Below, one piece after another: positions 9,735 through 39,811 of a DNA stretch of 40,107 nt. The notes beneath the pieces are model-generated. The model was not told where the DNA came from. It did not search any database and was given only the letters and a program-made list of their open reading frames with translations. Source of the DNA: a virus; the IMG/VR virus record IMGVR_UViG_3300010354_000204, positions 1-40,107 of that record. One strand, 5' to 3'. The position numbers and the translations under genes were made by a program. The number at the start of each line of letters is the position of its first letter. Within the stretch, counting starts at the first letter, position 1.

Positions 9735-9979
9735 CTTGATGGTACTCCCATATTACTTGGCATAAATAGCTCTACTTTGTGACCCCAGGAATCTCCGTTT
9801 TTATACTCAGAGTCGCCAGTCATTAAGCTAGTACTATCTGGGACTTTCTCGTTTAAATTATCTAGCTCTTTGTTATCTTGCTTGTTCATTGCTGCAGCTA
9901 GTTGGCTAGCATTGTTAATCTCCGCTAGCTTACAGCCTATAAGGTAGGCGTTGTATATTGCTTTATTAGTCATTCTCAT
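9731..9979 (-). CDS. Small hydrophilic protein downstream of the RNA polymerase fusion
   Basis: A reading frame of about 82 residues with MRMTNKAIYNAYLIGCKLAE near its start. I chose ATG at 9979 because GAG lies seven bases upstream; ATG at 9973 (MTNKAI...) is a close alternative, and the frame extends in principle to 9994. The start overlaps the last codons of the RNA polymerase fusion gene, so translation is coupled. The N-terminal part is helical and the rest is polar with no known motif. Its N-terminal pattern (A/Y-x-x-G-C/x-x-x-A) resembles other proteins in this block. Function unknown. Confidence 0.65.
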   Translation of the reverse strand: MRMTNKAIYNAYLIGCKLAEINNASQLAAAMNKQDNKELDNLNEKVPDSTSLMTGDSEYKNGDSWGHKVELFMPSNMGVPSR

Positions 9980-12900: not shown

Positions 12901-14318
12901 GGCTTTATCTTTGATACCTTACCTTTAGCCATAGCATCCACTCTACCCTTGTCTGTATCTTGCTGAGGGAAAGCTATATTTAAGTCCCTTATTTTCCTAG
13001 CAGGAACCCACTCCATCTCGTTAGTTTTAGCATTCTTTAATTTAGTATATAAGTACCCATCTTTATCTCTACCTGCTCCTAGAGTAAACCTAACGTCTAC
13101 CCCTGCATGCCCAGATTCTGGGGTTCTAAATGGATCTATTATACCCATCTGTGTAGGGTGTAATTGTCGGACTTCGCCAGGAATAGCTCTATCACTACCA
13201 ATACCACCTTCGCCAAGTCTAGTTACAGATAGAGAGCTATCTAGTAATTCTACTGGGTTAATTTGAGAAGGTATCATTGATAGCTGTGACGTAGATATAT
13301 ACTGCTTTAACATTGGGGTTATAGCCGTGCTTGGCATGACTTGCGATACCTTAACTTCTTTAGCTAAGTCTAACTTTGTCTTTATTTTATATCCAAGTTC
13401 TTTACCCTTTAGCCTTATTCTCTCTTTGAACATGTCCTCAACCCCTAGAACTCTCTGAAACTCAAGAGAATCTCTATCGTCCGGGGACTCATCGCCCTTG
13501 TATACTCCTACTAGTTTTTTACTAGCTAACAATATAGACTCTGGAGTTACTTTGCTAAAGCCTTTACCGAGCGTTCTTTCTGTAGTTTTCTCAGATAGAA
13601 CAGTGCTGTCATAGTGGGCCTGAATAGCTTGAACTCTTTCTTGGTGGCTAGTAGCTGTTCTTTTATTCTCAGGAACTAATTTCTCATACAGCTTTTGTAT
13701 AGCAGCTTGACCTTTATTTCCGTACTCAGAAGCATTTCTTTCTGCTAGATCTTTACCTAAGTAGTTAGCTATGTCAGAGTGCTCCATGCCTAAACTTCTT
13801 AGAACTGGATACATTGGTATTGAAGTTGTTCCATACTCCATATTAAGTAGACCTTTTGCAGGATCCATATTGACTCTAAAGTTGCTTCCTTTAGCCAAGT
13901 TAAAAGAAGCTTCTAGCTCCTCGTTCTCTCTTTGTCTAGTATAAACCCCTGGCATAGTTCTTAATTGGTTCTTAAATGCATACTCATTTCCGTTTATTAA
14001 AAATGCGTTATTCCAAGATAATCTAGGTAGGTGTAGTACTGTGTGCCCCTTTTTCTGGTCAACCACATTTCCCTGTTTGTCCTTTATTATTACATCTGCC
14101 TTAACCGGTTCGTATAGAGTACCTCTTTTGTATAGAGCATCTTTGTGTGTATTATAGTCTACCGGCTTTTCAATTACTCTGAAATTGTTAATTTCAACAT
14201 CATGGTGAGTACCTACTATCGGGAACATACCCTCTAGACCTTCTATAGTCTTTTCTCTAATAGATTTTTGCTTTTCTTCTACTGACTGCATCAGTGGTCT
14301 TACTTCTGGCTGAGACAT
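9966..14318 (-). CDS. RNA polymerase beta plus beta-prime N-terminal fusion (phage-encoded)
   Basis: This 1450-residue chain reads as a full beta subunit joined to the N-terminal half of beta-prime. Beta landmarks: FLINGNEYAFKNQLRTMPGVY (cf. [20 protein letters not shown]) near 100-125; HPTQMGIIDPFRTPESG (cf. HPTHYGRICPIETPEG) near 385-405; GDKLALGKNLKMAYM near 630; and GDKVSNRYGGKGVISKI near 770-787, the conserved GDKxxxRHGxKG element. Beta-prime landmarks: TRYSHIEL, KTFPVIPPQFRPIVPG, NRPVFLNRAPTLHRF, and the metal-binding MNLDYDGDALQIHLP near 1351-1365, equivalent to NADFDGDQMAVHVP with all three aspartates. The usual N-terminal beta-prime zinc finger is absent. The chain stops before the bridge helix, which is in the 6670-8448 product. 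Start: AGGA eight to nine bases upstream. No alpha or omega gene is seen here. Related phiKZ/AR9-type phages split beta and beta-prime; a beta/beta-prime-N fusion is different. Confidence 0.95.
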   Translation of the reverse strand: MSQPEVRPLMQSVEEKQKSIREKTIEGLEGMFPIVGTHHDVEINNFRVIEKPVDYNTHKDALYKRGTLYEPVKADVIIKDKQGNVVDQKKGHTVLHLPRLSWNNAFLINGNEYAFKNQLRTMPGVYTRQRENEELEASFNLAKGSNFRVNMDPAKGLLNMEYGTTSIPMYPVLRSLGMEHSDIANYLGKDLAERNASEYGNKGQAAIQKLYEKLVPENKRTATSHQERVQAIQAHYDSTVLSEKTTERTLGKGFSKVTPESILLASKKLVGVYKGDESPDDRDSLEFQRVLGVEDMFKERIRLKGKELGYKIKTKLDLAKEVKVSQVMPSTAITPMLKQYISTSQLSMIPSQINPVELLDSSLSVTRLGEGGIGSDRAIPGEVRQLHPTQMGIIDPFRTPESGHAGVDVRFTLGAGRDKDGYLYTKLKNAKTNEMEWVPARKIRDLNIAFPQQDTDKGRVDAMAKGKVSKIKPGEVDYIVNSVKDMYTLSTNMVPFLDGTQGNRIIMGSKMVGQAVPLVERETPLVGPSLNDKNTSISMENVVAKISSPSASEDGVVSKVNPDSIVLKTKEGEKVIPLANNVPMASKTFYHHTPMVKVGDKVTKGQILAESNYAKGDKLALGKNLKMAYMAYHGLNSNDAVVVSEEAAHKMRSVKMSKYVVEVDKDTRIDHYKHAANFPKQFTKDQYAKMKDGIVQKGTILKPGDPIITVLQKKAPSIENQILGKIHKSLRSEYSDKTETWTGESEAEVVDVQQQGNKITVVTKSEEPLRIGDKVSNRYGGKGVISKIVPTESMVQDESGKPIDILWSSLSVVSRINPGQVIEVAMAKAAQKKGTEYVIPNFQKVNNIKMARQALKEAGIKDKEDVYDPVTGKTIKGIMVGPQYTYRLFKTTDTNFSARGIDGGYDINGAPSKGGEEGAKGTGAMEINALLAHDARDILKENAVIKGTKNTEYWRAVQLGRPVPPPQSSFAFDKFKHMLAGAGLRLDRKENNMTIAPLLDEEVKKMSSGEIKNAKMVFAKNLMPERDGLFDIVTTGGLQGTRYSHIELPESVLNPLFSDAARRLLGTSETNLKKEILEKGGDEIRKKLNSLDLDSELEKAKKDLSSLKGADKDNAYKKIKAINALKENNHKPGEAYMIKTFPVIPPQFRPIVPGKGNDLLVSDVNHMYKDLMLAKEKLQEAKDLDLPDDDIKEMRSHLQQATGAVIGVNPPVSQKLVQSEVKGIVNTITGTKTGFFNGKVLARRLDLTGRGSAAPDPDLGMDEVGLPEEMMWGMYAPFIMKSLVKRGYNAISAKEMVDKRTSQAREELMIESKNRPVFLNRAPTLHRFNMIAAFPKPTSGKTITVSPFMEDGMNLDYDGDALQIHLPATEDAVKDTKKMLLSNNVFGDRTREQLLAYPKHEAIAGIARVAEDKRESGKKFKFNTVREAKQAYRRGEVSLIDHVEIDNEND

Positions 14319-14416
14319 CTTTTCTATCCTACATTATGGCACAAATTATACATAAATACTGTTATAAGTATATACCCAATCAAGGGTAGTTACAAACCTT
14401 AAACAGGAGAAAAAAA
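14319..14416. promoter_or_regulatory. Divergent intergenic promoter region
   Basis: These 98 bases separate the divergent RNA polymerase fusion gene (minus) and the 14417 gene (plus). On the plus strand CTGTTATAAGTATATAC lies at 14359-14375, matching motifs at 18020 and 30474. On the minus strand the overlapping GTATATACTTATAACAG resembles the element before the 5933 gene. No consensus TTGACA/TATAAT pair with normal spacing was found. A phage-specific, possibly bidirectional, promoter is the best reading. Confidence 0.45.
14359..14375 (+). promoter_or_regulatory. TGTTATAAG motif, copy 1
   Basis: CTGTTATAAGTATATAC, about 42 bases before the TTG start of the 14417 gene. The core TGTTATAAG is shared with 18020-18036 and 30474-30490, all on the plus strand upstream of a transcription unit. 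Confidence 0.45.
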
Positions 14417-15493
14417 TTGGGCAAGAATCTCAATTATAATGGACCCAAGGTCCAAGTTAAAGCTACTGAATTAAACACCAGCTTTGGTGGTTCAGATAGC
14501 AAAGTTAATACAGCTACAGCTAAAGATAGCAAAATCGCTTTCAGCATTCCTTTGTCATTTGTCAAAGGTGGTAAAGTAGATATCGAAAAGCTAGTAGTTA
14601 ATTGCGATTTCAGCGAAGAAGTCGCAGGTACAGTATATAATAGCTCAGTATCACTAAAAGATGCTAATGCTATTATTACAAAATTGCATGAACACATGCA
14701 AGATATTGCTACGTGCTTAAATAAAGATGCACGTAGAACCGGTAGCTATACAGTAGCTATCGGAGGAGCAAATTTCGGCTTGGTGGCAACAGAAAGAGAT
14801 GCCAAGCAAGAAGAGGCTTCACGCTTAATGAGCCTAGGTAAGTGGGTAGCTAGAGAAGGTGATTACCTCACCGCAGGTAGCGCAAAGATACCAAGTTACC
14901 TATACTTGCTTGAAAGGCCCTCGGTTGTATTCGAATGCCAGGGTCATAAGGTAGAGCTCTCTAGTAGGAAAGCTATGTTAGAGCTAATGGATTATGCAGA
15001 CGGTGACTTGCAAGAAGGTAACGTATTTGATCAACTAAAAAGTAAGATCAAAACCCCTTTGCAAATTAGATCAGAGAAGGAAGCGAAAATGCAGGATGAC
15101 ATTCTTAAGGCACTAGATGTCGAAATGAAGAAGGTAAGGGAGGAACAAGAGAAGGTAAGGGAAAAGCAGGAAAGGGAGGAACTAGAGAAGGAAGTAGGGT
15201 GGATCAAAACGGAAGTTATTTCAAATGCTGCGCGTTACGAGGCGCTGATTCGCAGGTTAAAGGATAAGGTGGATCTTATCAATTCTATCAAGACCAAGGG
15301 TTACCAAGCAATGTTAGAGTTGAGGGAACTCATGGTGGCCCAAGATAATGATGGAGCCATTATGCTAGCATTTGAAATAACCTCGGATAAATTAGCTTTC
15401 TTAAAGCTATGCTCTGAAAATAAAAACAACCTTAAATGGATGGTTGATAATAAGGGTTTATTTACAAAAAAGGATGATGAGGCCGCACAATAA
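14417..15493 (+). CDS. Hypothetical protein with coiled coil, probably highly expressed
   Basis: This 358-residue protein starts at TTG (14417), six bases after AGGAGA; no ATG lies suitably close, so the TTG start is well supported. Residues 1-190 are globular and mixed. A charged coiled coil follows (about 205-265, with repeated KVREEQEK-like heptads), then a helical C-terminus ending KKDDEAAQ. Isoleucine codons are almost all ATT/ATC, unlike the ATA-rich virion and helicase genes nearby, which suggests strong expression. It is the first plus-strand gene after a divergent promoter region. I do not recognise the family. A structural or nucleic-acid-associated role is possible but unsupported. 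Confidence 0.75.
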   Translation: MGKNLNYNGPKVQVKATELNTSFGGSDSKVNTATAKDSKIAFSIPLSFVKGGKVDIEKLVVNCDFSEEVAGTVYNSSVSLKDANAIITKLHEHMQDIATCLNKDARRTGSYTVAIGGANFGLVATERDAKQEEASRLMSLGKWVAREGDYLTAGSAKIPSYLYLLERPSVVFECQGHKVELSSRKAMLELMDYADGDLQEGNVFDQLKSKIKTPLQIRSEKEAKMQDDILKALDVEMKKVREEQEKVREKQEREELEKEVGWIKTEVISNAARYEALIRRLKDKVDLINSIKTKGYQAMLELRELMVAQDNDGAIMLAFEITSDKLAFLKLCSENKNNLKWMVDNKGLFTKKDDEAAQ

Positions 15494-19920: not shown

Positions 19921-20703
19921 ATGTCGTATAATCTACCAAAAAGCTTCTTATCAGCTTCACAGATAAACAAGTATCTATCATGCCCTAAGCAGTATGAACT
20001 AGAATACGTATTAAATACTAAAACAGAAGTTAAGAGACCATACGCCATGTCGCTAGGCAGCTCTGTTCATAAGTATGTAGAGACTCATATCAAAGAGATG
20101 TTAGCTACAGAGCTAAAGCCTCAAAAAGATTCAGACATCATAGTACTAGCAGAACCAGATGTTAATTCTATTTTATCTGATGAGACAATTGAGTACGAAG
20201 ATAACTTTAACATAGATACCCTAAAGGTATATGCACAAAATTTGTACAAAGTGTGGTATAAGGAACTGTCTCCTATACTCCTGCCTTCAAAGTCAGAGTC
20301 AAAGTTTGAATCCTTTGTTGGTGATGTACCTGTAATGGGATTCATTGACTATGTAGATAGTAGCGCTGGCTACACAGAGATTTGTGACTTAAAAGTGGTA
20401 GATAAGTCCAAGTCCGAAGCTGACGCTAGAGACAGCATACAACTTGCAATGTATGCCATTGTTGAGTCTAACCCATATGTTAGGTTTGACAGTGTAGTTA
20501 AAAATAAACTACCAAAGTTAAATCAAGTCAGGTATAAATACTCTCCCGGAGAGCTACAGTATTTTACCGACTTAATTGGAGAGGTAGCTACAAACATCTC
20601 TCAAGGTAATTTCCCCCGTACTGCACCTAACACCTGGATGTGTACAGCTAAATGGTGCCAGTATTTCTCACAATGTAGAGGTAAATATGATGGAAAAGAA
20701 TAA
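19921..20703 (+). CDS. PD-(D/E)XK nuclease, RecB/Cas4-like with Fe-S cysteines
   Basis: This 260-residue protein shows the RecB/Cas4-type nuclease order: SASQINKYLSCPKQYELEY (about 10-28, first cysteine), GSSVHKYVE (about 44-52, the histidine), GFIDYV (aspartate), CDLKVVDKSKS (the D-x-K catalytic pair, about 155-165), QLAMYAI (QxxxY motif), and a C-terminal CTAKWCQYFSQC cluster (about 240-251) that would complete a 4Fe-4S cluster with the N-terminal cysteine. It should act on DNA ends as an exonuclease or single-strand nuclease. The ATG follows the helicase stop directly, and it overlaps the ParB-like gene by 17 bases. A similar enzyme lies at 23375-24160. Role in recombination or host DNA processing is inferred. 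Confidence 0.85.
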   Translation: MSYNLPKSFLSASQINKYLSCPKQYELEYVLNTKTEVKRPYAMSLGSSVHKYVETHIKEMLATELKPQKDSDIIVLAEPDVNSILSDETIEYEDNFNIDTLKVYAQNLYKVWYKELSPILLPSKSESKFESFVGDVPVMGFIDYVDSSAGYTEICDLKVVDKSKSEADARDSIQLAMYAIVESNPYVRFDSVVKNKLPKLNQVRYKYSPGELQYFTDLIGEVATNISQGNFPRTAPNTWMCTAKWCQYFSQCRGKYDGKE

Positions 20704-21787
20704 TTTCCCAATAATAGATATTTCAGATGCTAGACGTACTTACAAGCTAGTAGATGTAGATAAGTTAGATTTCAAGGAACCAAATAGCTCAGATTATTTG
20801 CAATCCAGAGAGTTCTATGGCGATCAAGAAACAATCGATAGCTTGAAGTCCTCTATCAAAGAAAGAGGATTACTTGAAAGCCCAATAGTTATGGAACCAG
20901 ATACCCAAGAAGGTAAGTTAAGAGTATTAGAAGGTAATAGACGATGCTATGCTGTGTCTTTACTTCTAAAAGAAGGTGTGACCTCAACTAATAATGGTAA
21001 AGCTCTTACTAAGATTAGATGCGAAGTTAGACCCTCTAAGTTAACCCTTATCGAAGAATGCTTCGAAGAATGGGTAGCACTTAATGAAAGTGCTGATGAT
21101 AAAGAAAAAGAAGAAGTAAGGAACTATATTACAAAAGAAGTTCTTAGCCAGTTAGGTTCTGATGCTTTGGTTAGAAATACCCAAAGACTTAACTGGAATG
21201 CAATGGAGCAAGCTAGAGCAATCAAGCAATTGTTAGATGCTGGGCTAAGTATGGAACAAGTATGTAAGAATTGCTCTTTGGCTGAGAATACCATCAAGGC
21301 AAGACTTTCTTTGTTATCCAGAGAAGAAGAAATGCCTGAGGTTATTGAAGCTATTGACAAAGGTGAAATTACTTTTCATGTTGGTAAGATCTTAGCTAAT
21401 GTCTCTGATGAAGAAACTCGTAAAGAGATTCTAGAAGAAGCAAAAGCTGGTGCTTCTGGCTCTGAAATCAAAGAGAAGATTAATAAGAAGCAAGAAGAAG
21501 CAGAGAAAGAAGGCAAGTCCGTTAAAGCTCAGCATCGCAAGAAGGATCCAAAGCCTGCCAACAAGTTAGCCAATGCGCTAGGAATTAGAAAAGATAGCGA
21601 GATCTTAGAGGCAGTAGCTAAGTTATCTGCAGAGAGAAGCACTCTACAGGAATTTGATGACGAGGTATCAGCCAACTCTGTGCTAGACATCGAAATCTCC
21701 TTAAAGACACTTCAATGGATCTTAAACCCTGCAGATACTACTAGCATTGTTAATTTGATTTTAGGATTAAACGAAGACAAAGCCTAG
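20687..21787 (+). CDS. ParB/Srx-fold DNA-binding protein
   Basis: This 366-residue protein has a ParB-type N-terminal domain: SLKSSIKERGLLESPIVM (about 57-74) and the box-II-like LEGNRRCYAVSLL (about 88-100, where chromosomal ParB has GERR). A helix-turn-helix-like segment follows (AGLSMEQVCKNCSLAENTIK, about 184-203), then charged helices with a basic linker (about 250-290) and an acidic C-terminus. ATG at 20690 is a good alternative start because AGAGG is eight bases before it. Codons favour ATT/ATC. Phage ParB-like proteins can act in partition, transcription regulation or as nucleases; no ParA is seen here, so simple partition is not supported. Confidence 0.75.
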   Translation: MMEKNNFPIIDISDARRTYKLVDVDKLDFKEPNSSDYLQSREFYGDQETIDSLKSSIKERGLLESPIVMEPDTQEGKLRVLEGNRRCYAVSLLLKEGVTSTNNGKALTKIRCEVRPSKLTLIEECFEEWVALNESADDKEKEEVRNYITKEVLSQLGSDALVRNTQRLNWNAMEQARAIKQLLDAGLSMEQVCKNCSLAENTIKARLSLLSREEEMPEVIEAIDKGEITFHVGKILANVSDEETRKEILEEAKAGASGSEIKEKINKKQEEAEKEGKSVKAQHRKKDPKPANKLANALGIRKDSEILEAVAKLSAERSTLQEFDDEVSANSVLDIEISLKTLQWILNPADTTSIVNLILGLNEDKA

Positions 21788-21788
21788 T

Positions 21789-22490
21789 CTAGAAAGCACA
21801 CCATCTGTGTAACTTCTTTACCGCTTCTGTCTTTAATTGCCTAACTCTCTCAGAGGATAATTTAAGCTTCTTACCTATTTCTCTTAAAGACTTAATTTGT
21901 CCTGACTCAGATAATCCATGAGAGTACTCTACAATATATCGTTCTCTCTCAGTTAAAAATCTCATCCAAGTTCTTAAAGAATCTAAATCATGTGATTCTT
22001 CTAGGACTTCATACAGATTAACTTCATAAACCTCTCCCGGAACTGCTTCCTCTGGAAGTATTTTAGGGACGGCTTTGTCAGCAGGTAATCTTAGAGGACC
22101 TTTCTGTACTTTACGCATACACATTAAAATCCAATGGCCTGCATACGTACAGAACCTAACCTTATACTTCGGATCGTATCTATCCATTGCTATAAGAAGG
22201 CCTTCGTTACCTGCTGCTATTAATTCTTGCAATGTTTCTTTATCTTTATCTTTCCATAGATACTTAGCTAATGAAAACACTAGCTTTAAGTTGCTTTCTG
22301 CAACTTTTTGGCGTATAGTTATCTTCCTTGAATCAGAGGTTCCCGCCCTACAGTACTCTTCCATGTACTTAAATTCTAGTTCTTTATCTAGAATGGTTAC
22401 CTCTGCCAATTGGTTATAGTAAGAGTCCAAGCCATCTTCTGGCTGCTCTGCTAAGTTATTCCCTTTACCATTTTTTGGAGTATTAGACAT
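21789..22490 (-). CDS. Sigma-70-family RNA polymerase sigma factor
   Basis: This 233-residue protein has sigma-70 organisation. Region 1.2-like: ILDKELEFKYMEEYC. Region 2 (about 57-125): SNLKLVFSLAKYLWKDK, LIAAGNEGLLIAMDRYDP, VRFCTYAGHWILMCMRK, matching the core-binding and -10 recognition helices. Region 4 (about 175-230): LTERERYIVEY, SLREIGKKLKLSSERVRQL, a helix-turn-helix for -35 binding. Region 3 looks short. It would direct the phage or host core polymerase to phage promoters. It is the only minus-strand gene inside the plus-strand replication operon; its start codon abuts the next plus-strand ATG, so it is fully antisense to an operon transcript. Its own ribosome-binding site is weak. 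Confidence 0.9.
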   Translation of the reverse strand: MSNTPKNGKGNNLAEQPEDGLDSYYNQLAEVTILDKELEFKYMEEYCRAGTSDSRKITIRQKVAESNLKLVFSLAKYLWKDKDKETLQELIAAGNEGLLIAMDRYDPKYKVRFCTYAGHWILMCMRKVQKGPLRLPADKAVPKILPEEAVPGEVYEVNLYEVLEESHDLDSLRTWMRFLTERERYIVEYSHGLSESGQIKSLREIGKKLKLSSERVRQLKTEAVKKLHRWCAF

Positions 22491-27100: not shown

Positions 27101-27465
27101 TCCTTGCTACTCCTTCAGAGCGTAGAAGTCTGCATGAGCTAGACTGTGGTGTTAGCTATGCTGAGGTTTTAAATACAAATAAAGCTAAGGGAGAGCATTA
27201 CCAAAAGTGGTTAATAGTTATGTGGCCTGATTGCTTGAGAACTTTACTAAGCAAATCGCCAAGATACTCAAGAGAAACAGCAGATAGATTAAAACGTATG
27301 GGTGACTCTAGCTCTAATAGTGTGCCTTACAATACTGCTAGGAAGAAGGCTAACGGCATAAAGCAATTCCTTCTTCCTGGTATATCTGCTTCAGATATAA
27401 CTATTTTCGATATAACAGACATGATAGATGACTGGGATAACAGAGGAAAAGAAGATGGCGAATAG
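24169..27465 (+). CDS. Primase-helicase (CHC2 zinc finger, TOPRIM, P-loop ATPase)
   Basis: This 1098-residue multidomain replication protein starts eight bases after the nuclease stop. A DnaG-type zinc finger (about 42-70: CCPFPGHTDSSPSC, then KCFGCG) is followed by a TOPRIM-like domain: EAILVEGEFDCLQ at about 268-280 and LFVMDHPEHRGDEI at about 317-330, where the usual D-x-D is altered. The C-terminal half has a P-loop, GARGTGKSKLL (about 711), and an acidic Walker B-like ALDEFEDD (about 760). The order matches phage primase-helicases that prime and unwind at the fork. The altered TOPRIM aspartates leave priming activity to be tested. Its end overlaps the polymerase start by 11 bases. Codons are ATA-rich. 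Confidence 0.88.
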   Translation: MDKISQVRKIWDEIHLSAWKDILTESGSSKWEIRGTSLKGCCPFPGHTDSSPSCYIVTSKKFVKCFGCGSYETNPIKFVAMVTGSSWANAVKMLRDKGVKSLPAKAVQEVQEAEIRDEVKSMLALAFNTVLVEAIDKKDDPEYAFAKECVEYIESRGIKLDKDLIKWLPIGILPPWVMLRKHIVANSERCYDYIKDWITADYVGSLVFFYHKTPTEISRFKLRADHLRKDKTSKDIVYVKDENEEGLGFFGLSNYRSKYSKFDSVTEAILVEGEFDCLQHLVNFYQDGVTWDIVLGIGGAASSSPDLLSEVCGVERVLFVMDHPEHRGDEIAKTVLKQTKIPVKIFSWPDSIKEKDPDEAIKTHGWKTWLKTITELDTSDIRSTSRLHFEVAHKWLVRQTVVELNAADPEDLARFRQIISEDGGCLRDPDSQRLYATEVAKKCTSLSLSTILELILGNDTSEEGLVARILQALRQEFFFIGMDGRATEAVIKAWNRKKREPREWRISKSSEMFGLLAIDLGPAVNWVRDNVGVPSFITRKPKANNQFMDVPLIEQNTNLKKYMEFAIDSLASELPTVDSLQEAKAGSHFLKATFGDTEEDVWAVVNGHDVYLGRFTATGLRWSLLDGPRIGKYYFNISRQPWSREISSIRDLEQGTEYSPKETYEELVKLIQTGWSLADGITDCKYLAAAMMINAISSCLPRQLYTLLNGARGTGKSKLLDIIAGNNPQLRLVESTSDVQQAYTSAGFRKDMNNCALGAALDEFEDDKDDSHSYQVRAILRDIRGLTNAPEARITRGNVENSNATVYTLKCQIWACAINYLREEADISRFMQIHTIKEDDKSDPHTVILDKYEESDLTKIRRGISVGLFHHVKEFLANVSELRTFYSDPAQMDKLSVISGVSVPSRFLDGVIITAAMVKLAGQDAHAYIQEVICTKIGLLNIITESTHDKDLIDHILSSKVEHKREGITARNTTVRTILATPSERRSLHELDCGVSYAEVLNTNKAKGEHYQKWLIVMWPDCLRTLLSKSPRYSRETADRLKRMGDSSSNSVPYNTARKKANGIKQFLLPGISASDITIFDITDMIDDWDNRGKEDGE

Positions 27466-30454
27466 TCAAAAACCAAGTAGTTGCTTAGGATGTCCCTCAT
27501 ACAACTCAGATAAGATGGTTATAGGTAGCGGAGTTAGGCCAGCAGATGTAGCCTTTGTTAGCTCTACACCACCCCCTTGGGGAGGTTTGTATACAGACAA
27601 AGGTGGTAACATTCTAAAGTACCTTCTAAAAACTATGCCTAAAGAAGGTAGCGAAGAAGAGCAACGGGCTTGTCTAAATATGCAAGCTAGGCACTTCATG
27701 ATGTATGCTGCTTGCTGCCCTGGTAGTAAGGTAAATAGCACCATAGATAAGTGCAGAGGTTCTGTATCTGGTAGTATGCTGTCTCTTGCTAATCCCAAGA
27801 TAGTAGTTGCTTTCGGGGTAGAAGCATGCCACTTTCTAGGCGTATCTGGCAACATTACAGATATCAGAGGAACTATACATACAGTTAAATTCGAGGGTAA
27901 AGATCTGAAAGTTATACCTACTCTACCTCTAAGTATGCTAGAAGATAAGCCAGGTTTATTTGCTATTGTAAAAAATGATCTTAGAAAAGCAGCTATGTCT
28001 GCTGTGGATAAGAAGCTAGATGATATAGATGTCCCAACATTGATATCTGGGTATGACCTACCTCTTGAGTTGAATGACTCTATAGAAGTACTTAATAAAT
28101 ACAGTAATTATGTAGAGCCTGACAAGACAATAGAAAACACTATGATGTCAGTGGACTTCGAAGCTGATACTCTATTTCCTTGGAATAAAAAGGGTAGGGT
28201 ATTAGCAATGTCTGGCTGTGTTGGGCCTGGCAAGGCTTTCTCTATACTAGTAGACCATAGAGATTCAAAGTATAAATTCGAAGATATAGTTCCGTATGTA
28301 GTTAAGCTACTTAATAGCCCACATCCAAAGTGCTGGTGGAACTATAAATACGACTATGGCATGGCTAGATTTTGTTTAACACAAAGAATAGTTGAGCTAT
28401 GCGAATCTAAAGGTAAAGAGTATCAGCTAAAATTTGAAAGCATAAGCGGTATTACTATACAAGATCTTATAGCTAGGGGGCCTATAAATAACACGAAATG
28501 GGATGGCATGCTTGGCGAGCATATGTTACATGAGGATAAGAAGGGGTTTTACTCACTAAAAGAAGTAGTAACAGAAAGCTATCCAAGCTTAGTAGGCTAT
28601 GAGGAAAAACTACATGGCCTACTAGACGAAGCTAGAAAGTCTAAGCTGGACTTAGAAATAGCTAGCTATATGTCTAGAAATCCTAATGAGTGTTATGGTA
28701 TTGAGTTATTTGATAATTCACCTATACATGCAGGGTTAATTATAGATAAGTACCCTGACATAGAAGCTACTATAAAGTCTCTCAAAGCTAAAGCAAGACT
28801 TAAGAAAACTCCAGAAGTAGAAAAGAAAGCTATTGAAGTAGCTGTTGATATATTCTCTAACTGGAATGACACAGCTAAAGAAGAAACAAAGATAGGTAAA
28901 GATAATATAAAGTCTTGGTTTAATAAGTTAGATAATGCAGCTAAGGATGCTGGGGATCCAAGACTAGAGGCGGTAACCTTTGAAGATGTTGATATATCAG
29001 TGATGCTACCCTATGCTGCTATAGATGCAGATCTAACTTGGCGTATATCTAATAAACAAAGAATAGACTGTGTTAAAGAAGATCCTATAAAGAAAGCCGC
29101 TCTAGAGAATAGACCTCCTCTTATTAAACTAATGAACTCTCACTACATACCATTAACTGAAGTTCTAAGCGAAATGCAAGTAGAGGGTGTAAGAATAGAT
29201 AGAGAGTTTCTAGCTAAAAATCTAACTAGACTAACTATAAAAGAGCAAGAGCTTGAAACTCAAATCCTAGAGAAGCTAAAGCAGGACTTAAATAAAGACT
29301 ATGACGTTAGCGCTTTGTCTAGCAATAAAGAGCTATCTAATATATTCATAGGTGGGTATGGCTTACCAAAAGTAAAGTCTACTGATGGCGGAGATGCTAG
29401 TACTGATAAAGAAACTATGGATAAATACAAAGAGATGGGAAACCCAGTAGCTAGCCTTATAGTAGACTATAGAGATATAGCCAAAGCTAAGTCTACTTAT
29501 GTAGGAGCTTTTCTAGACTTGAGTTCTTATGATAATAGAATACACGGTGCCATACATCTCAATGGCACGGCTACAGGTAGAGCTAGTTCTAGTAGTCCTA
29601 ATCTACAGAATGTAACAAGTAGCATAGCTGGTATGAGTATTAAACAAGCCTTTGTACCTACTTGCACTAAATCAGGTGGGTACGAAGAGCATCTAAGAAA
29701 TAAATACAAATGGCAGTATGGTGAGGAACTTGTTATGGTGGATATTGACTTTTCTGGGGCAGAGATACGCGGGTTAACTGCGTATGTAAAAGACACTTCT
29801 CTTATTGGTGCCTTAGAAAAGAATCTAGACATACATTCTTGGATTGCCTCGGTAATATTTAACGAAGATTATGATACAGTTAATAAGCTAAGAAAAACTG
29901 ATGACAGATACCACCAGATGAGGCAGAAAGCTAAGACAATTGTGTTTGGCTTAATATACGGCATATCTAATGTTGGTTTGTCAGACAGGCTTAGCATAGA
30001 TATTAGCGAAGCAGATACCTTAATGGTTACATTCTTTTCTAGATTTCCTAAGATAAAAGAATACATTGATGCTACTAAATTACAGGTAACTAGGGAAGGA
30101 TTGCTTAGGACTCCTACAGGTAGAGTTAGGAGATTTCCGCTAGCGCAGATGGGTGGGCAATTCGAGAGTAGAAATCATAGGCAAGGTATTAACTATTTGG
30201 TTCAGAGTTTTTGTGCTGAAATTGTTCTAAGAATAATAAACCATTTACATAAGAACATACATAAGATACGAGGTAGACTTGTACTAACAGTGCATGACTC
30301 AATTGTTTTGGAAATGCCTAAGACAGAGATAGATAATCTAAAGGCGTTCTTGAAAGATAATATCGATACCTTTATAGCTAGCAACTTCCCGCAGCTTCCA
30401 GTTAATATGCCATACGATATAAAAATAGGTAGGTCATATGGAGAAGCAGAATAA
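27455..30454 (+). CDS. Family A DNA polymerase with N-terminal UDG-like domain
   Basis: I chose ATG at 27455 (MANSQKPSSC...), seven bases after AGAGGA, giving 999 residues; a frame from 27428 exists without a good site. Residues about 1-180 resemble a family-4 uracil-DNA glycosylase: CLGCP, then ACCPG and DKC (four cysteines for 4Fe-4S) and PKIVVAFGVEACHFLG. The catalytic GEAPG and HPS motifs are changed to SSTPPPW and LPLSMLE, so activity is doubtful. SPO1-like phage polymerases carry a comparable domain. The 3-prime to 5-prime exonuclease is seen as VDFEAD (about 233), NYKYDYG (about 295) and AAIDAD (about 520). Polymerase motif A is DIDFSGAEIRG (about 762), B is RQKAKTIVFGLIYG (about 822), and C is LTVHDSIV (about 945), with serine where HDE is usual. 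Confidence 0.93.
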   Translation: MANSQKPSSCLGCPSYNSDKMVIGSGVRPADVAFVSSTPPPWGGLYTDKGGNILKYLLKTMPKEGSEEEQRACLNMQARHFMMYAACCPGSKVNSTIDKCRGSVSGSMLSLANPKIVVAFGVEACHFLGVSGNITDIRGTIHTVKFEGKDLKVIPTLPLSMLEDKPGLFAIVKNDLRKAAMSAVDKKLDDIDVPTLISGYDLPLELNDSIEVLNKYSNYVEPDKTIENTMMSVDFEADTLFPWNKKGRVLAMSGCVGPGKAFSILVDHRDSKYKFEDIVPYVVKLLNSPHPKCWWNYKYDYGMARFCLTQRIVELCESKGKEYQLKFESISGITIQDLIARGPINNTKWDGMLGEHMLHEDKKGFYSLKEVVTESYPSLVGYEEKLHGLLDEARKSKLDLEIASYMSRNPNECYGIELFDNSPIHAGLIIDKYPDIEATIKSLKAKARLKKTPEVEKKAIEVAVDIFSNWNDTAKEETKIGKDNIKSWFNKLDNAAKDAGDPRLEAVTFEDVDISVMLPYAAIDADLTWRISNKQRIDCVKEDPIKKAALENRPPLIKLMNSHYIPLTEVLSEMQVEGVRIDREFLAKNLTRLTIKEQELETQILEKLKQDLNKDYDVSALSSNKELSNIFIGGYGLPKVKSTDGGDASTDKETMDKYKEMGNPVASLIVDYRDIAKAKSTYVGAFLDLSSYDNRIHGAIHLNGTATGRASSSSPNLQNVTSSIAGMSIKQAFVPTCTKSGGYEEHLRNKYKWQYGEELVMVDIDFSGAEIRGLTAYVKDTSLIGALEKNLDIHSWIASVIFNEDYDTVNKLRKTDDRYHQMRQKAKTIVFGLIYGISNVGLSDRLSIDISEADTLMVTFFSRFPKIKEYIDATKLQVTREGLLRTPTGRVRRFPLAQMGGQFESRNHRQGINYLVQSFCAEIVLRIINHLHKNIHKIRGRLVLTVHDSIVLEMPKTEIDNLKAFLKDNIDTFIASNFPQLPVNMPYDIKIGRSYGEAE

Positions 30455-30470
30455 CGCAAAAATATGCGTT
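30453..30470 (+). terminator. Weak hairpin after the DNA polymerase gene
   Basis: AACGCA (30453-30458) pairs with TGCGTT (30465-30470) around the polymerase stop codon. Only a short T-tract follows, so termination is uncertain. It separates the polymerase gene from the TGTTATAAG motif at 30474. Confidence 0.35.
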
Positions 30471-30473
30471 TAT

Positions 30474-30490
30474 CTGTTATAAGATAATAC
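30474..30490 (+). promoter_or_regulatory. TGTTATAAG motif, copy 3
   Basis: CTGTTATAAGATAATAC lies directly upstream of the large noncoding region. It shares nine consecutive bases with the motifs at 14359 and 18020 and is the best candidate promoter for the structured RNA. Confidence 0.5.
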
Positions 30491-30629
30491 CTAATGCTCC
30501 CCTGCTATTAGGTAGCTAAGTAGTTACTGTCTTTTACTATAAAAGAGTACTATATACACAGATAGATAAATGTCATGCAATTCAGCTTATTTCTAGCTAA
30601 ATAGCATAACGTAACTACTGGTACTTAGC
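30488..30629 (+). other. RNA structural domain 1 of the large ncRNA candidate
   Basis: TACCTAAT (30488-30495) pairs with ATTAGGTA (30507-30514). Immediately after, AGCTAAGTAGTTAC (about 30514-30527) can pair with GTAACTACT...TAGCT (about 30611-30629) with a small bulge, closing a roughly 80-base domain that contains a CTTTT/AAAAG hairpin. Confidence 0.5.
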
Positions 30630-30704
30630 TAGGTATTACTAGGTGCAGCTATTAGCTAGCTTAAAGCTAGCTCACTTAAGATATATGTAGCAATACTAAA
30701 TAAG

Positions 30705-30811
30705 GTGCTGTTCTGCAGAACCCGGAAAGCTTCTGTCATCTGTCTGGCTACACGGCTACGCCATTTCTCCAGACATATGACAAATGCACTTCCAGTTCTA
30801 CTGCTCAGCAC
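30705..30811 (+). other. RNA structural domain 2 (rod-like arm)
   Basis: Nested pairings: GTGCTG (30705-30710) with CAGCAC (30806-30811); AGAAC (30717-30721) with GTTCT (30795-30799); GGAA (30724-30727) with TTCC (30790-30793); TGTCAT (30734-30739) with ATGACA (30777-30782); TGTCTGG (30741-30747) with CCAGACA (30769-30775). All are in register, giving one long interrupted arm. Confidence 0.7.
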
Positions 30812-30911
30812 TTATATTTACTATTTCATAAAGTGCACTTAGTTAAAAGTTAATGTAGGTAGAAATATGTTGGTATAATATCAACGTACTAAGTATTCTG
30901 AAGAATACACA

Positions 30912-31042
30912 ATAATACTTCATCCCCGTGCTTCGGCCCAGGAAGTAGTGGCTACTGGTTTAGACCAAGACTCTACGCGTCTTTAGTCTAAACCCAGATA
31001 GACCTCACTTCCCAGCCGAAGAGCGCGGATCTAATGTATTAT
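30912..31042 (+). other. RNA structural domain 3 (long rod-like arm)
   Basis: Nested pairings: ATAATAC (30912-30918) with GTATTAT (31036-31042); TTCGGC (30932-30937) with GCCGAA (31015-31020); GGAAGT (30941-30946) with ACTTCC (31007-31012); GGTTTAGAC (30957-30965) with GTCTAAACC (30986-30994); AAGAC (30967-30971) with GTCTT (30979-30983). The whole 131-base segment folds as a single extended arm. Confidence 0.8.
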
Positions 31043-31090
31043 ATTCCTATAGTACCTACTAGGTATAGTTATTAAGCTAGATAGAATACT

Positions 31091-31107
31091 GCTTGATAAA
31101 CTCAAGC
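31091..31107 (+). other. Small hairpin in the ncRNA candidate
   Basis: GCTTGA (31091-31096) pairs with TCAAGC (31102-31107) around the five-base loop TAAAC. Confidence 0.6.
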
Positions 31108-31145
31108 GTACTAATATTACCGTTAGGTGATAAACTTAGATTCGC

Positions 31146-31238
31146 GGAAGCGTCGAGAGCGATTTGAAATGCAGCCTAAGTCGTTTCGTTACACTCTCGA
31201 CATCAGGCACGCAACTCAAAACCGCTACCGACGCTTCC
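31146..31238 (+). other. RNA structural domain 4 (multi-branched, overlapping stems)
   Basis: GGAAGCGTCG (31146-31155) is perfectly complementary to CGACGCTTCC (31229-31238). GTCGAGAG (31152-31159) is perfectly complementary to CTCTCGAC (31194-31201). The two stems share bases 31152-31155, so they either split the overlap in a junction or exchange as alternative folds. Confidence 0.8.
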
Positions 31239-31286
31239 CTAAATCTTCAAGTCTTCTACAAGTATCTAGTAAGCTACACAGATATG

Positions 31287-31303
31287 GGCAGTATTATACT
31301 GCC
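31287..31303 (+). other. Near-perfect inverted repeat in the ncRNA candidate
   Basis: GGCAGTAT (31287-31294) and ATACTGCC (31296-31303) are separated by one base; as RNA the top of the stem would open into a small loop. Confidence 0.7.
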
Positions 31304-31332
31304 AAACTACTTAGTATATGTATGTACAATAC

Positions 31333-31381
31333 CTAGTGGGACAGGGCAGCCTCGACCTAAAGAACAAGGCTTTGTCACTAG
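31333..31381 (+). other. RNA structural domain 5
   Basis: CTAGTG (31333-31338) pairs with CACTAG (31376-31381), ACA (31341-31343) with TGT (31373-31375), and AGCCT (31348-31352) with AGGCT (31367-31371), giving a bulged hairpin. Confidence 0.7.
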
Positions 31382-31424
31382 ATATTATTACTTATTGTGT
31401 GAAGCTTAAAGTTATGATACAGTT

Positions 31425-31566
31425 AGTATCTCGGCAGAATTAAGCTATAGATTATCTATAGTAACTAAATTTCTGAAAAGAAAAATCAACTAGTACTACC
31501 AGGTACCTGCCGTTTCAGGCTGGTACCTGAGAACGCACTACCTTGTTTCATTAGTGCCGAGATACT
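31425..31566 (+). other. RNA structural domain 6 closed by a 12-base-pair helix
   Basis: AGTATCTCGGCA (31425-31436) is perfectly complementary to TGCCGAGATACT (31555-31566). Inside are CTATAGAT/ATCTATAG (31445-31461) and CAGGTACC (31500-31507) with GGTACCTG (31522-31529), the latter capped by GCC/GGC after a T-T mismatch. This is a closed multi-hairpin domain. Confidence 0.8.
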
Positions 31567-31612
31567 TAAATCAGTTTGCTTGCGCCTTACTATTTGCTAT
31601 GGAGCAATCAAT

Positions 31613-31629
31613 ATTGAGCTAAGCTCAAT
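31613..31629 (+). other. Inverted repeat in the ncRNA candidate
   Basis: ATTGAGCT (31613-31620) and AGCTCAAT (31622-31629) flank one base; a small TTGCT/AGCAA hairpin lies just before (31594-31607). Confidence 0.6.
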
Positions 31630-31665
31630 TAACTATAGACAGTATGTTATACATATTATTCTCGC

Positions 31666-31790
31666 AGCCCTGCTGGTTATGAGCTTAGACTATTCTTGGA
31701 CTTCCCCACAGGTTTGTAAGCCCCTATGGGGCTGTTTAACCTGTATGGAATTACCAAGAACTAGTACTAAAGCTCTTAACCAGCTGGGCT
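31666..31790 (+). other. RNA structural domain 7 (125-base arm)
   Basis: Nested pairings in register: AGCCC (31666-31670) with GGGCT (31786-31790); GCTGGTTA (31672-31679) with TAACCAGC (31777-31784); GAGCTTAG (31681-31688) with CTAAAGCTC (31767-31775, one bulge); TTCTTGG (31693-31699) with CCAAGAA (31754-31760); ACAGGT (31708-31713) with ACCTGT (31739-31744); AGCCCC (31719-31724) with GGGGCT (31728-31733). Symmetric T-T mismatches join the outer helices. Confidence 0.85.
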
Positions 31791-31893
31791 CCTTGTATAT
31801 TAATTTACTTGTGCATACGCACTATAGTTAGGCCTAGGCTTTCGCTAGGTAGTTAGTTATATAGTTATTACTTTACAAACATGAGGATTATCC

Positions 31894-32613
31894 ATGGCTA
31901 GAAAATATTCTAATAAAGTTACATATGTTCCTTACTCATCTGAGGAATTTGATAGACGCATAGCTATTGCTTCACAAAATATTGAGGCAATAGAATCAGT
32001 TATTTCCAGCAATAAAAGCAACAAGGCTAAAAATAGAGATATGCGGTTTTTGCTAGCTGCTATCTTTGGGTTGCTAGATGAAAGTTTAATATCTAGAAGA
32101 CAACCAGCCCAAAGACATGTTGAGCCCCTTGAGTACATCGAAAGAATCAATAGGGGCTTAAGTTCGTTCTTCTTCTCTTCTTATGAAGAAGAACCAGAGT
32201 TAAATAGACGATCTCTTGCATTAATTGATTGTCTAGGTAATAATGCTGAATGGTTCTTGAGAACTAAAAGATTAAAGTCAACTACCATTGAGCCAGCACA
32301 GGTACAAGAAGAACCTACTATCGAGGTAAAGGCAGATCAAAAGCCAGAGCTAGTAGTAGAAGTTAAAGAGGAAGAAGTTATGGAAACCAAGATTAAGCAA
32401 AAGACACCTGCTACTCCAAGGATTACAGAGTCAGATGTATGGTTAGCTATTCAGCGAGAAGAAGATTTCAAGCAACTTAGAACAGAGATTAAGTCTATGT
32501 TTCCGGAAGTAATTGAAGATCCTACTGGGGTTGTGGTATTAGCTAATAAGCTAGGCTTAGCTGATTTGTTAGCTAGAGTTAGAAGAAGTTACATTTTCAA
32601 TAGCAAGGATTAA
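31894..32613 (+). CDS. Hypothetical protein with acidic linker
   Basis: This 239-residue protein has an N-terminal helical domain (about 1-130), a charged K/E/V-rich linker (about 135-175, with VEVKEEEVMETKIKQK) and a small C-terminal helical domain (about 180-239). GAGG lies about seven bases before the ATG, in the 3-prime flank of the structured RNA region. The next gene starts one base after its stop codon, so the two are co-translated. Isoleucine codons are mostly ATT. I do not recognise the family. Its pairing with an SspB-like protein might suggest a shared task, but this is only context. Confidence 0.75.
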   Translation: MARKYSNKVTYVPYSSEEFDRRIAIASQNIEAIESVISSNKSNKAKNRDMRFLLAAIFGLLDESLISRRQPAQRHVEPLEYIERINRGLSSFFFSSYEEEPELNRRSLALIDCLGNNAEWFLRTKRLKSTTIEPAQVQEEPTIEVKADQKPELVVEVKEEEVMETKIKQKTPATPRITESDVWLAIQREEDFKQLRTEIKSMFPEVIEDPTGVVVLANKLGLADLLARVRRSYIFNSKD

Positions 32614-32614
32614 G

Positions 32615-33112
32615 ATGCGAGAAAGATTACCAACTCCAGAACTACTAAGTGAGTTCTTAGATCAAGGTACTGTATCAGTTAGCCTGAATTTACTACATGA
32701 AGATGCAATGCATGACATTGTTACTGAGGATGGCCAAGACAGTATTGTTCTAAAGTTAGACAATAGTGATGCAGCTAAATTCAGAATGGATATTGTTAAT
32801 CTGTACATCAATGGTACAGATAGAAAGGGAAATTCTTTCAGCGGTATATTCCCTTTTGATGCAGTGTACAGGGTAGAGTTAAGTTCTCCGGCAGGTGATG
32901 CGGTTAGGGATTATCCCCTAAATACACCAAAGGCCTACATTATTATCAATGAGGCTCTTGATGCTTATAGAGAACATGAGGATAAGGTGAGAGATATCCT
33001 AGGTATTAATGAGTTACTAGCTAAAGCAGATGAGCTTACACAATCTGCTAGAGATATATTAAATAATGTTATCTCAGGTATAGAAGAAGACTTCTTTAAT
33101 AATAATCAATAA
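32615..33112 (+). CDS. SspB-like protein, diverged paralogue
   Basis: This 165-residue protein appears to share the SspB beta-fold layout with the 39140-39811 product: LLSEFLDQGTVSVSLNLL near the start, DSIVLKLDNSDA (cf. GQIVLNIAPRA in SspB) and GIFPFDAVYRVE (cf. VSVPLAAVLAIY). SspB dimers deliver substrates such as ssrA-tagged proteins to ClpXP. Here the match is weaker and the typical C-terminal ClpX-binding tail is not evident; the protein ends EEDFFNNNQ. It could be a non-canonical adaptor, a decoy that blocks one, or only a structural relative. AGGA lies five bases upstream. Its stop region overlaps the convergent terminase stop. Confidence 0.5.
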   Translation: MRERLPTPELLSEFLDQGTVSVSLNLLHEDAMHDIVTEDGQDSIVLKLDNSDAAKFRMDIVNLYINGTDRKGNSFSGIFPFDAVYRVELSSPAGDAVRDYPLNTPKAYIIINEALDAYREHEDKVRDILGINELLAKADELTQSARDILNNVISGIEEDFFNNNQ

Positions 33113-34620
33113 AAAGTTAGATCATGAGATAATATTTTACAGGCGACCCATGCAAACACAGAAGAATGCAGGCAGTCGTCTGGAGAGTTTGGAGAGTGCC
33201 TCCAAACTTTTTTACCTGACTGAGTTACTTCCTCGTACTCCGCTAGGTAATCTTCAAAGCATAATTTCATTTTCTCGTAAGGCGGAAATTCTATTCCGCC
33301 TTTTTTTATTGTATGAAAGAAGCAATCTATTAATGTGGTTCTATCGGCTGTATACCTATCTACGTTATTCCAAGTTAGTGGTTTGTTTTGCGATCCGTAT
33401 TGGAGCTGGTAAAGCGGTTTTCCTTCTAGCTTGGTTCTTAGCAAAGAGTTGGCTAAGGCGCCTTCTCCGGCGTCTCCGATTACTAGAGTAACATTGTGTC
33501 TAGTTATTTCATTAGCTATTGAGTCAACTGCATCTACGGGGTTTATGTCGCTGTAAATCTTGTAATCTACAAAGGTAAACTTAGATCCTGGATGTAGAGA
33601 CATAATGGTTAGTACTGTTCTGGATAAACCCTGCGTTCCACCTCCAGACCAGTCAACTCCTGCACAGATAAAACCCATAGGCTTTATATTAGATACACAG
33701 CTAGCTTTAAGCTCGTCTAATGAAATTAATCTAGAGCCTATGGAATCAGATACTCCCATTACTTCATTCTTAAACTTAGAATCAGAATAAGTGTTCTTTT
33801 TATCAACTATTCTCTTCCAGCGATGTGGTTCTTGATTAGCTGGTAGTATAACTTGTGGTACGTGAAATGCTTGTACTATAGACGACTCGGGTGACTTCAT
33901 ATCAACCCAGATCCCATTACGAGGATTAACGTGCTTACTACAATGTAAGCATAGGAGAGCATCTTTACCGATGCCTCTGTCGTCCCTATAAAACGAGTAT
34001 TTACTACACGCATCACATTTAATACACCACTCAGATTGAGTGCTATGCTGCCATAGGTATTCTATGGTATTCTCTTGGGTTTTAGGCGTACCCATGTACG
34101 TTATGTAACCGTAAGGAGAATTAGACATGCACTCATTAACTACAGGAACAACAGCTTCGTAGTTAATATCTTGAACCTCATCGTAAATGACCCTATCTGC
34201 AGAGATACCACGTACTCTGTCTGGGTCATCTTGGGCATAGTTAAACAGTAATTCAGAACCATTGCCTAGCACTTTTAAAAATACATTATCATTGATAACG
34301 TCTCCCATCATCTGCTTTAGGAGAGGTGAATGTCTAATTAGTTTAGATATACGTGTATTACTAAAAGTGCTAGTCTGCTTAGAACTGGGACTAAGGTATA
34401 AAGATTTAAAATGAGGTATAGCTATAGCTTCGCATACGGAGAAGCTAGCTGCAGATACGGACTTACCGACTTGTCTGCCGCACATAAGCAATGTTTGAGG
34501 CCATATGCCTTCATACAGAGCATCGTAAAAAGGATATTCGTGTAAGCTGAACTGCTTACCATCAAGCGTTAGTAGAGACTCTGCTAACTGCTTTCTAGAT
34601 AAAGAAATAGGGTCTATCAT
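33106..34620 (-). CDS. Terminase large subunit
   Basis: This 504-residue protein is the DNA-packaging motor and nuclease. The ATPase domain has Walker A CGRQVGKS (about 47-54) and Walker B RVIYDEVQD (about 140-148), followed by an MGTPKTQE coupling motif. A zinc-ribbon-like insert, CIKCDACS ... CLHCSKHV (about 197-235), sits between the ATPase and nuclease parts. The RNase-H-fold nuclease has acidic residues in AGVDWSGGG (about 320), VIGDAGEG (about 378) and DDCLHS (near the C-terminus). AGGTGA is just upstream of the ATG. Convergent overlap with the plus-strand SspB-like gene at the stop codons. The small terminase subunit is not recognised in this window. Confidence 0.93.
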   Translation of the reverse strand: MIDPISLSRKQLAESLLTLDGKQFSLHEYPFYDALYEGIWPQTLLMCGRQVGKSVSAASFSVCEAIAIPHFKSLYLSPSSKQTSTFSNTRISKLIRHSPLLKQMMGDVINDNVFLKVLGNGSELLFNYAQDDPDRVRGISADRVIYDEVQDINYEAVVPVVNECMSNSPYGYITYMGTPKTQENTIEYLWQHSTQSEWCIKCDACSKYSFYRDDRGIGKDALLCLHCSKHVNPRNGIWVDMKSPESSIVQAFHVPQVILPANQEPHRWKRIVDKKNTYSDSKFKNEVMGVSDSIGSRLISLDELKASCVSNIKPMGFICAGVDWSGGGTQGLSRTVLTIMSLHPGSKFTFVDYKIYSDINPVDAVDSIANEITRHNVTLVIGDAGEGALANSLLRTKLEGKPLYQLQYGSQNKPLTWNNVDRYTADRTTLIDCFFHTIKKGGIEFPPYEKMKLCFEDYLAEYEEVTQSGKKVWRHSPNSPDDCLHSSVFAWVACKILSHDLTFY

Positions 34621-39139: not shown

Positions 39140-39811
39140 ATGACTACTACAATAAATGTTAAAGAGTTACTAAATAATTATTTAGAACAAGGTAAAATTC
39201 TTATTGCTGTTGATAGCAATATCGAAGGTACAGTTCTTCCAGACTATTTGAAGAATAGTATTCAAGTTAAGTTAAATCTGAGTCATAAGTTCGATACAAC
39301 AGTATTTGAAATTGGTGAAGATAAAGTTACTGTGGATCTTTCCTTTTCTGGAAAGAAGTTTATGTGCAGTATTCCATTTGCTGCTATTTACTATGTAGCT
39401 ATGGCTGAAGATCCACTAAATGGTGTTGAAATCATTGAAAATATGCCATTTGAGTTATTAAAGTTATCCTATGAAATTACTCTAGCAGCTGAAGCTGAAA
39501 GAGAAATTGAAGATAAAGATATAGATTTTCTTTCTAATATTCCTGCTGAAAAAGCTGATAGTATCAATAAGAATCTAGGCTTAGATGAGAGAGCTGCAGA
39601 GCTAACTAGAAGAGGTAAACCTATGCCCTCTAAGTCAGATGCTATTGATAAGATGTTTGATGAGTTCATGGAATTAGTTAAGCATGATGGTATTAGAGAA
39701 TCTCTATCTGATATTTCTGGCAAGATTCATTCCCCAAAAGCTAGAACCAAGAAGAAAGCTACTAATGAGATAAAGCTCAGTAAGAAGCACTTCAACAAAG
39801 ATAAGAAATAG
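39140..39811 (+). CDS. SspB-like ClpXP-adaptor-fold protein
   Basis: This 223-residue protein resembles SspB across its first 110 residues. LIAVDSNIEGTVLPDYLK corresponds to SspB LVVDVTLPGVQVPMEY, IQVKLNLSHKF to IVLNIAPRA, GEDKVTVDLSFSGK to ANDEVRFNARFGG, and CSIPFAAIYYVAM to VSVPLAAVLAIYA. SspB delivers tagged proteins to ClpXP. Here the C-terminal third is highly charged and basic, ending SKKHFNKDKK, and no clear ClpX-binding LRVVK-like motif is seen. It might redirect, block or add substrates to host ClpXP. It follows the VWA gene by 35 bases; the ribosome-binding site (AGGA) is rather distant. A paralogue-like protein is at 32615-33112. Confidence 0.7.
   Translation: MTTTINVKELLNNYLEQGKILIAVDSNIEGTVLPDYLKNSIQVKLNLSHKFDTTVFEIGEDKVTVDLSFSGKKFMCSIPFAAIYYVAMAEDPLNGVEIIENMPFELLKLSYEITLAAEAEREIEDKDIDFLSNIPAEKADSINKNLGLDERAAELTRRGKPMPSKSDAIDKMFDEFMELVKHDGIRESLSDISGKIHSPKARTKKKATNEIKLSKKHFNKDKK

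Follow-up and report, generated by a model that had tools for sequence, protein, structure and literature searches.

The DNA studied here is a 40,107-nt viral sequence (IMG/VR record IMGVR_UViG_3300010354_000204; hereafter the window), in which a noncoding spacer follows the gene for a family A DNA polymerase (polA; Table 1). The spacer fills exactly the gap between the polA stop (30454) and the start of the next gene (31894), as the first-pass annotation had placed it. That annotation had also seen no credible protein gene, which is borne out: ORFs within the spacer reach only 69–83 aa and are not conserved in the nearest relative (L001), and no ORF with a plausible start, or conserved reading frame, is shared across the spacers of the family. 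A protein-coding region was rejected on these grounds. The predicted minimum free energy of the spacer is -488.0 kcal/mol, compared with a mean of -354.3 (sd 9.2) for dinucleotide shuffles (z -14.6), and the reverse complement gives z -15.9, both strands folding about equally well. For comparison, 19 further stretches of 1,439 nt taken from the window scored from about 0 to -5, vs. -15.3 for the locus. The 131-base rod (30912–31042) and 125-base arm (31666–31790) noted in the first pass are present, together with at least four further arms. A search against Rfam, which had been proposed at that stage, gave no match at the gathering score for the locus in the window or in seven relatives, and a permissive scan of the locus returned chance hits only, none of them GOLLD, ROOL, OLE or HEARO. 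ARAGORN detected no tRNA or tmRNA in the window or the contig pieces that carry the locus, and no tRNA fold at the locus; the only tRNAs found lie elsewhere in genome G002, away from the locus.

Table 1. Features of the hairpin-rich spacer and its neighbors in the window.
Feature	Positions	Strand	Basis
Family A DNA polymerase (polA)	27428–30454	+	PF00476, E 6.6e-77
Hairpin-array locus (noncoding polA-terminase spacer)	30455–31893	+	MFE z; absence of Rfam matches and of a conserved frame; synteny of hairpin-rich spacers in ~20 relatives
Promoter-like CGCAAAAATATGCGTTTATCTGTTATAAG (-35-like CGCAAA, extended -10 TGTTATAAG)	30455–30483	+	Gap-free alignment in 13 of 20 family spacers
Arm 1 (30488–30543 with 30590–30658)	30488–30658	+	Symmetric inverted-repeat alignment
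7-3-7 hairpin TCTTTTA-CTA-TAAAAGA	30530–30546	+	Hairpin scan
7-3-7 hairpin GCTAGCT-TAA-AGCTAGC, 8 bp when extended	30655–30671	+	Hairpin scan
Rod 2 (30692–30756 with 30760–30825)	30692–30825	+	Inverted-repeat alignment
7-3-7 hairpin GTTGGTA-TAA-TATCAAC, one G-T pair	30869–30885	+	One-mismatch scan
Rod 3 (30887–30971 with 30979–31061), the 131-base rod of the first pass	30887–31061	+	Folding and inverted-repeat alignment
Rod 4 (31105–31183 with 31198–31275)	31105–31275	+	Inverted-repeat alignment
7-3-7 hairpin GGCAGTA-TTA-TACTGCC	31287–31303	+	Hairpin scan
Arm with perfect 12-bp closing stem AGTATCTCGGCA/TGCCGAGATACT	31425–31566	+	Inverted-repeat alignment
7-3-7 hairpin CTATAGA-TTA-TCTATAG	31445–31461	+	Hairpin scan
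7-3-7 hairpin ATTGAGC-TAA-GCTCAAT	31613–31629	+	Hairpin scan
7-3-7 hairpin AGTATGT-TAT-ACATATT, one G-T pair	31641–31657	+	One-mismatch scan
Rod (31654–31724 with 31728–31802), the 125-base arm of the first pass	31654–31802	+	Folding and inverted-repeat alignment
239-aa gene without assigned function, only in the window and L001	31894–32613	+	Domain searches and relatives
Terminase large subunit, convergent to polA	33106–34620	-	PF05876, phrog_675

Searches of IMG/VR with polA, primase, and terminase, following the homologue search suggested in the first pass, recovered about 20 distinct viral contigs of up to 194 kb with syntenic, hairpin-rich spacers. One further relative is a contig in an Archaeoglobales MAG (L068, QMZE01000001.1), a placement that reflects either mis-binning or an archaeal host. 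The relatives share the gene order PDDEXK-primase-polA-spacer-terminase, and the terminase is convergent to polA in all of them. The family consists of uncultivated large marine phages; no close cultured phage was found, the terminase being at most ~32% identical to those of named phages, and the spacers match no named phage at the DNA or protein level.

The spacer is hairpin-rich in every member folded, and all spacers compared with shuffles are over-folded (z -3 to -16 for most; L018 is weaker, at approximately -2 to -3, and polA controls range from -0.3 to -2.7; the L044, L059, L063, and L066 spacers were folded without a shuffle z). The first-pass description of one giant ornate RNA, longer than GOLLD or ROOL, is not supported by the relatives, whose spacers range from 128 to 3,219 nt, have almost no sequence in common, and are built from small hairpin modules whose copy number rises and falls. 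The polymerase of L001 is 97% identical to that of the window and the flanking DNA ~89% identical, yet the two spacers cannot be aligned past their first 60 bases, which indicates a hypervariable locus rather than a conserved giant RNA. Downstream of the array, two genes (window 31894–33112) encode products of 239 and 165 aa that are only ~50–63% identical between the window and L001, against ~89% for the flanking DNA; these genes thus form part of the hypervariable block. The L014, L015, and L022 spacers consist of three-hairpin units repeated in tandem, each ~70–116 nt long (most 100–115), with five units in L014 vs. three in L015; a covariance model of this module matches no spacer outside the group. 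A CTAG/ACTAGT linker was discarded as a family-wide motif because it is not enriched over shuffles in most spacers, and a mobile element was rejected because pieces of the window, L001, and L020 spacers are not repeated elsewhere in their own genomes.

One conserved feature is a promoter-like element at the polA stop. The pattern CGCAAAAAT-N11-TGKTATAAG occurs there in 13 of 20 spacers, gap-free and with identical spacing, with small variations in the first block (CGCAAAAAT); it is absent from the seven distant spacers among the 20 checked, and the polymerases of genomes bearing it are as little as 43% identical. The 5′-edge motif that the first-pass annotation had linked to two other operon fronts corresponds to TGTTATAAG, located at 30475–30483 and recurring at 14360 and 18021, ahead of a 358-aa ORF and a helicase operon, respectively, both on the plus strand. 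The 358-aa ORF (14360–15493, +) has a TTG start and no assigned function, and its beginning is unusually structured (z -6.7). In several genomes, including L006, L011, and L014, the polA strand has no plausible gene between the element and the convergent terminase, and the element would therefore drive expression of the spacer alone. The window and L001 have two genes behind the array, and in these genomes the array could double as a leader for them. The window encodes a sigma-70-like factor with regions 2 and 4 (21789–22490, -) that is a candidate for recognizing the CGCAAA/TGTTATAAG element. Two proteins encoded at 6670–8448 and 9966–14318 (-) match beta subunit families of phage multisubunit RNA polymerases (phrog_3295, 2987, 3015, and 25354). 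The lineage thus seems to have a multisubunit RNA polymerase of its own, which together with the sigma factor may read the conserved element.

Within the spacers, the recurring module is a 17-nt hairpin with a 7-bp stem and a triloop ending in A (consensus G-UWA-C; 7-3-7 hairpin). When perfect hairpins were counted over a grid of stem and loop sizes in 18 spacers, the class with exactly 7 bp and 3 nt numbered 41, where 0.8 would be expected; triloop hairpins fell off sharply on either side, with 13 having 6-bp stems and 5 having 8-bp stems. A separate scan found 48 perfect copies vs. 1.07 in shuffles; the window alone holds five, a number above two being reached in none of 2,000 shuffles. Among 56 distinct copies, the last loop base is A in 48, the closing pair is G-C in 34, and the first loop base is T in 32, with triloops mostly UUA, UAA, CUA, and GUA. 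One window copy (31641–31657) has a last loop base other than A and overlaps the foot of the adjoining rod. The distant members L019 and L088 show these hairpins at the corresponding location, and scans of the window, G001, and G002 revealed no comparable cluster outside the spacer. Across these sequences the geometry (7 bp, a 3-base loop, and the last loop base) is kept while the stem letters vary freely. A structured stretch of G002 (109000–119000) was considered as an equivalent array and rejected, being an early-type region of small genes with their own repeated promoter-like (CTTATGCCATAAAA) and terminator-like (AAAAAACCG...CGGTTTTCTTTTT) sequences. In L019, a GC-rich 194-kb relative, about nine 7-3-7 hairpins lie in tandem at positions 10700–12400, which may make this array the most suitable starting point for experiments.

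Covariation, proposed as a test in the first pass, is evident in the stems. In L014, L015, and L022 the 7-3-7 hairpin is 100% paired although five of seven pairs have changed on both sides, a covariation score reached by none of 500 shuffles; the separate nine-hairpin array of L019 behaves alike (0 of 500). Between L013 and L020, seven orthologous hairpins carry 14 compensated pair changes and one broken pair. Some covarying hairpins were picked by eye, so percentages of paired cells lean upward; the stem/loop grid count is unselected and unaffected by this. Mismatches point to a strand. 7-3-7 hairpins with one internal mismatch contain 27 G-T and 6 A-C pairs, vs. 2.6 and 2.2 in shuffles, and the ratio is ~25:6 (p ~0.0004) once repeated copies are removed. 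Changes between relatives likewise run from Watson-Crick to G-U in 14 cases and to A-C in five. This bias, in line with the promoter-like element, favors an RNA on the polA strand. The long rods differ: in the window (30887–31061 and 31654–31802), L001, and L006 they hold 54 A-C and 25 G-T mismatches, a bias that would favor the minus strand or DNA; these rods may serve a different function or be expressed from the opposite strand. The first-pass argument for RNA, drawn from T-T mismatches and G-T pairs, therefore fails for the window rods; it is the 7-bp triloop hairpins, absent from that annotation, that provide the strand evidence. A mismatch test on long noGU folds was dropped because it did not discriminate; an E. 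coli rRNA control failed as well, showing that the test has little power on long folds.

The locus, the promoter-like element, the hairpin geometry, the covariation, the change in copy number, and the strand bias of the small hairpins are each supported by these comparisons, and the locus probably encodes a functional structured RNA. We infer that a promoter directly 3′ of polA would drive a noncoding transcript from the same strand as polA. This RNA would be a chain of hairpin modules in which the recurring 7-bp stem with its G-UWA-C triloop is interspersed with longer rods. Because the stem sequence is free while stem length, the number of loop bases, and one of those bases are constant, the hairpin looks like a site that a protein would read by shape, and the presence of many copies on one RNA suggests titration or scaffolding. 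The RNA would then most likely be a multivalent protein-binding molecule (a sponge, decoy, or scaffold) resembling CsrB-type RNAs; that it sequesters or scaffolds a protein is the leading proposal, with somewhat less than even chances. The array would grow and shrink through duplication of modules, with whole alleles swapped. Such replacement of alleles and turnover of units are suggestive of diversifying selection, which makes a counter-defense decoy attractive but unproven. A more specific version, in which only geometry is selected and a fast-diversifying decoy array confronts a hairpin-sensing host protein in this large phage lineage, is possible but doubtful.

Several known systems offer partial parallels. 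CsrB, CsrC, and RsmZ are protein-sequestering RNAs with many copies of a binding hairpin, and the arrays resemble them in having many hairpins that share a short fixed signature, weak sequence conservation, and variable copy number. They differ in that the signature is a 7-bp stem with an NNA triloop in place of the GGA loop motif, and units of the L014 group are ~110 nt and include rods. RNA anti-CRISPRs and ToxI-like repeat decoys copy host RNA sequence; they are likewise fast-evolving phage RNA decoys of repeated short structures, whereas the array stems vary freely. An analogy for the reading of geometry is provided by the coat-protein operator hairpins of the RNA phages MS2, PP7, and Qbeta, in which stem length and loop are recognized and stem sequence is variably tolerated (PMC7952577). 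Those operators are single, bulged, and found in RNA phages, and no coat-like RNA-binding protein was identified here.

Other readings must account for the same evidence. The spacer could act as DNA, its hairpins extruded in single strands for replication, recombination, or packaging, and the equal folding of both strands, the lack of G-T preference in the rods of the window clade, and the adjoining polA and terminase are all compatible with this. We nonetheless regard it as unlikely, as the small hairpins tolerate G-T but not A-C, their loop consensus (third base A, first base T) is strand-asymmetric, the promoter-like element is directed into the spacer, and neither sequence nor length is conserved. 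Somewhat less probable is an insulator or 3′-end element, whose hairpins would stop or stabilize transcripts from polA and terminase while the details drift. The convergent arrangement in all relatives suits such a role, as does the ability of hairpins to function on both strands; however, the spacer greatly exceeds a terminator in length, a clear stem followed by a T-run was not found in it, it opens with a promoter-like element, and terminators are not characterized by an exact 7-bp/3-nt geometry combined with a constant A in the loop.

GOLLD and ROOL are giant ornate RNAs of phages and prophages (PMC12286853), and the locus resembles them as a large, phage-encoded, highly structured noncoding RNA without assigned function. 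A self-assembling RNA of this sort (a cage or scaffold) under very fast sequence drift would fit the many helices and the lack of Rfam matches to other kinds, but it is improbable given spacers that cannot be aligned, vary in length over the range given above, and show no conserved 3′ core or common secondary structure, the one module model being limited to its group. The locus is instead an array of small modules whose units are gained and lost, its unpaired bases are not A-rich, and it does not adjoin tRNA genes, of which the window has none. A by-product of mutation, such as template switching that creates palindromes in noncoding phage DNA, would explain the slight constraint on primary sequence and the tandem duplications, but is disfavored as very improbable, since the 7-bp/3-nt preference, loop-base bias, and G-T tolerance are not expected from it and no similar cluster occurs elsewhere in the three genomes scanned.

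A strict hairpin shape kept while nearly every letter changes suggests a class of phage RNA not described before, and the preferred reading is a multivalent hairpin-array RNA. We group the locus with the large structured phage RNAs, among which it would be unusually modular and hypervariable. Structured RNAs are normally discovered through conserved sequence or one conserved fold, and searches of that kind would miss it; the signature described here (7-3-7, loop NNA) can be counted and used to hunt for similar arrays. It also raises a testable question, namely what protein recognizes hairpins with a 7-bp stem and a triloop, and whether it belongs to host defense. If the array is indeed a decoy, it would represent a new route of phage counter-defense. 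Elsewhere in the window are genes for a ParB-like protein (20687–21787, +) and for an SspB-like protein (39140–39811, +) that scores barely above the Pfam cut-off; SspB is a ClpXP adaptor in bacteria.
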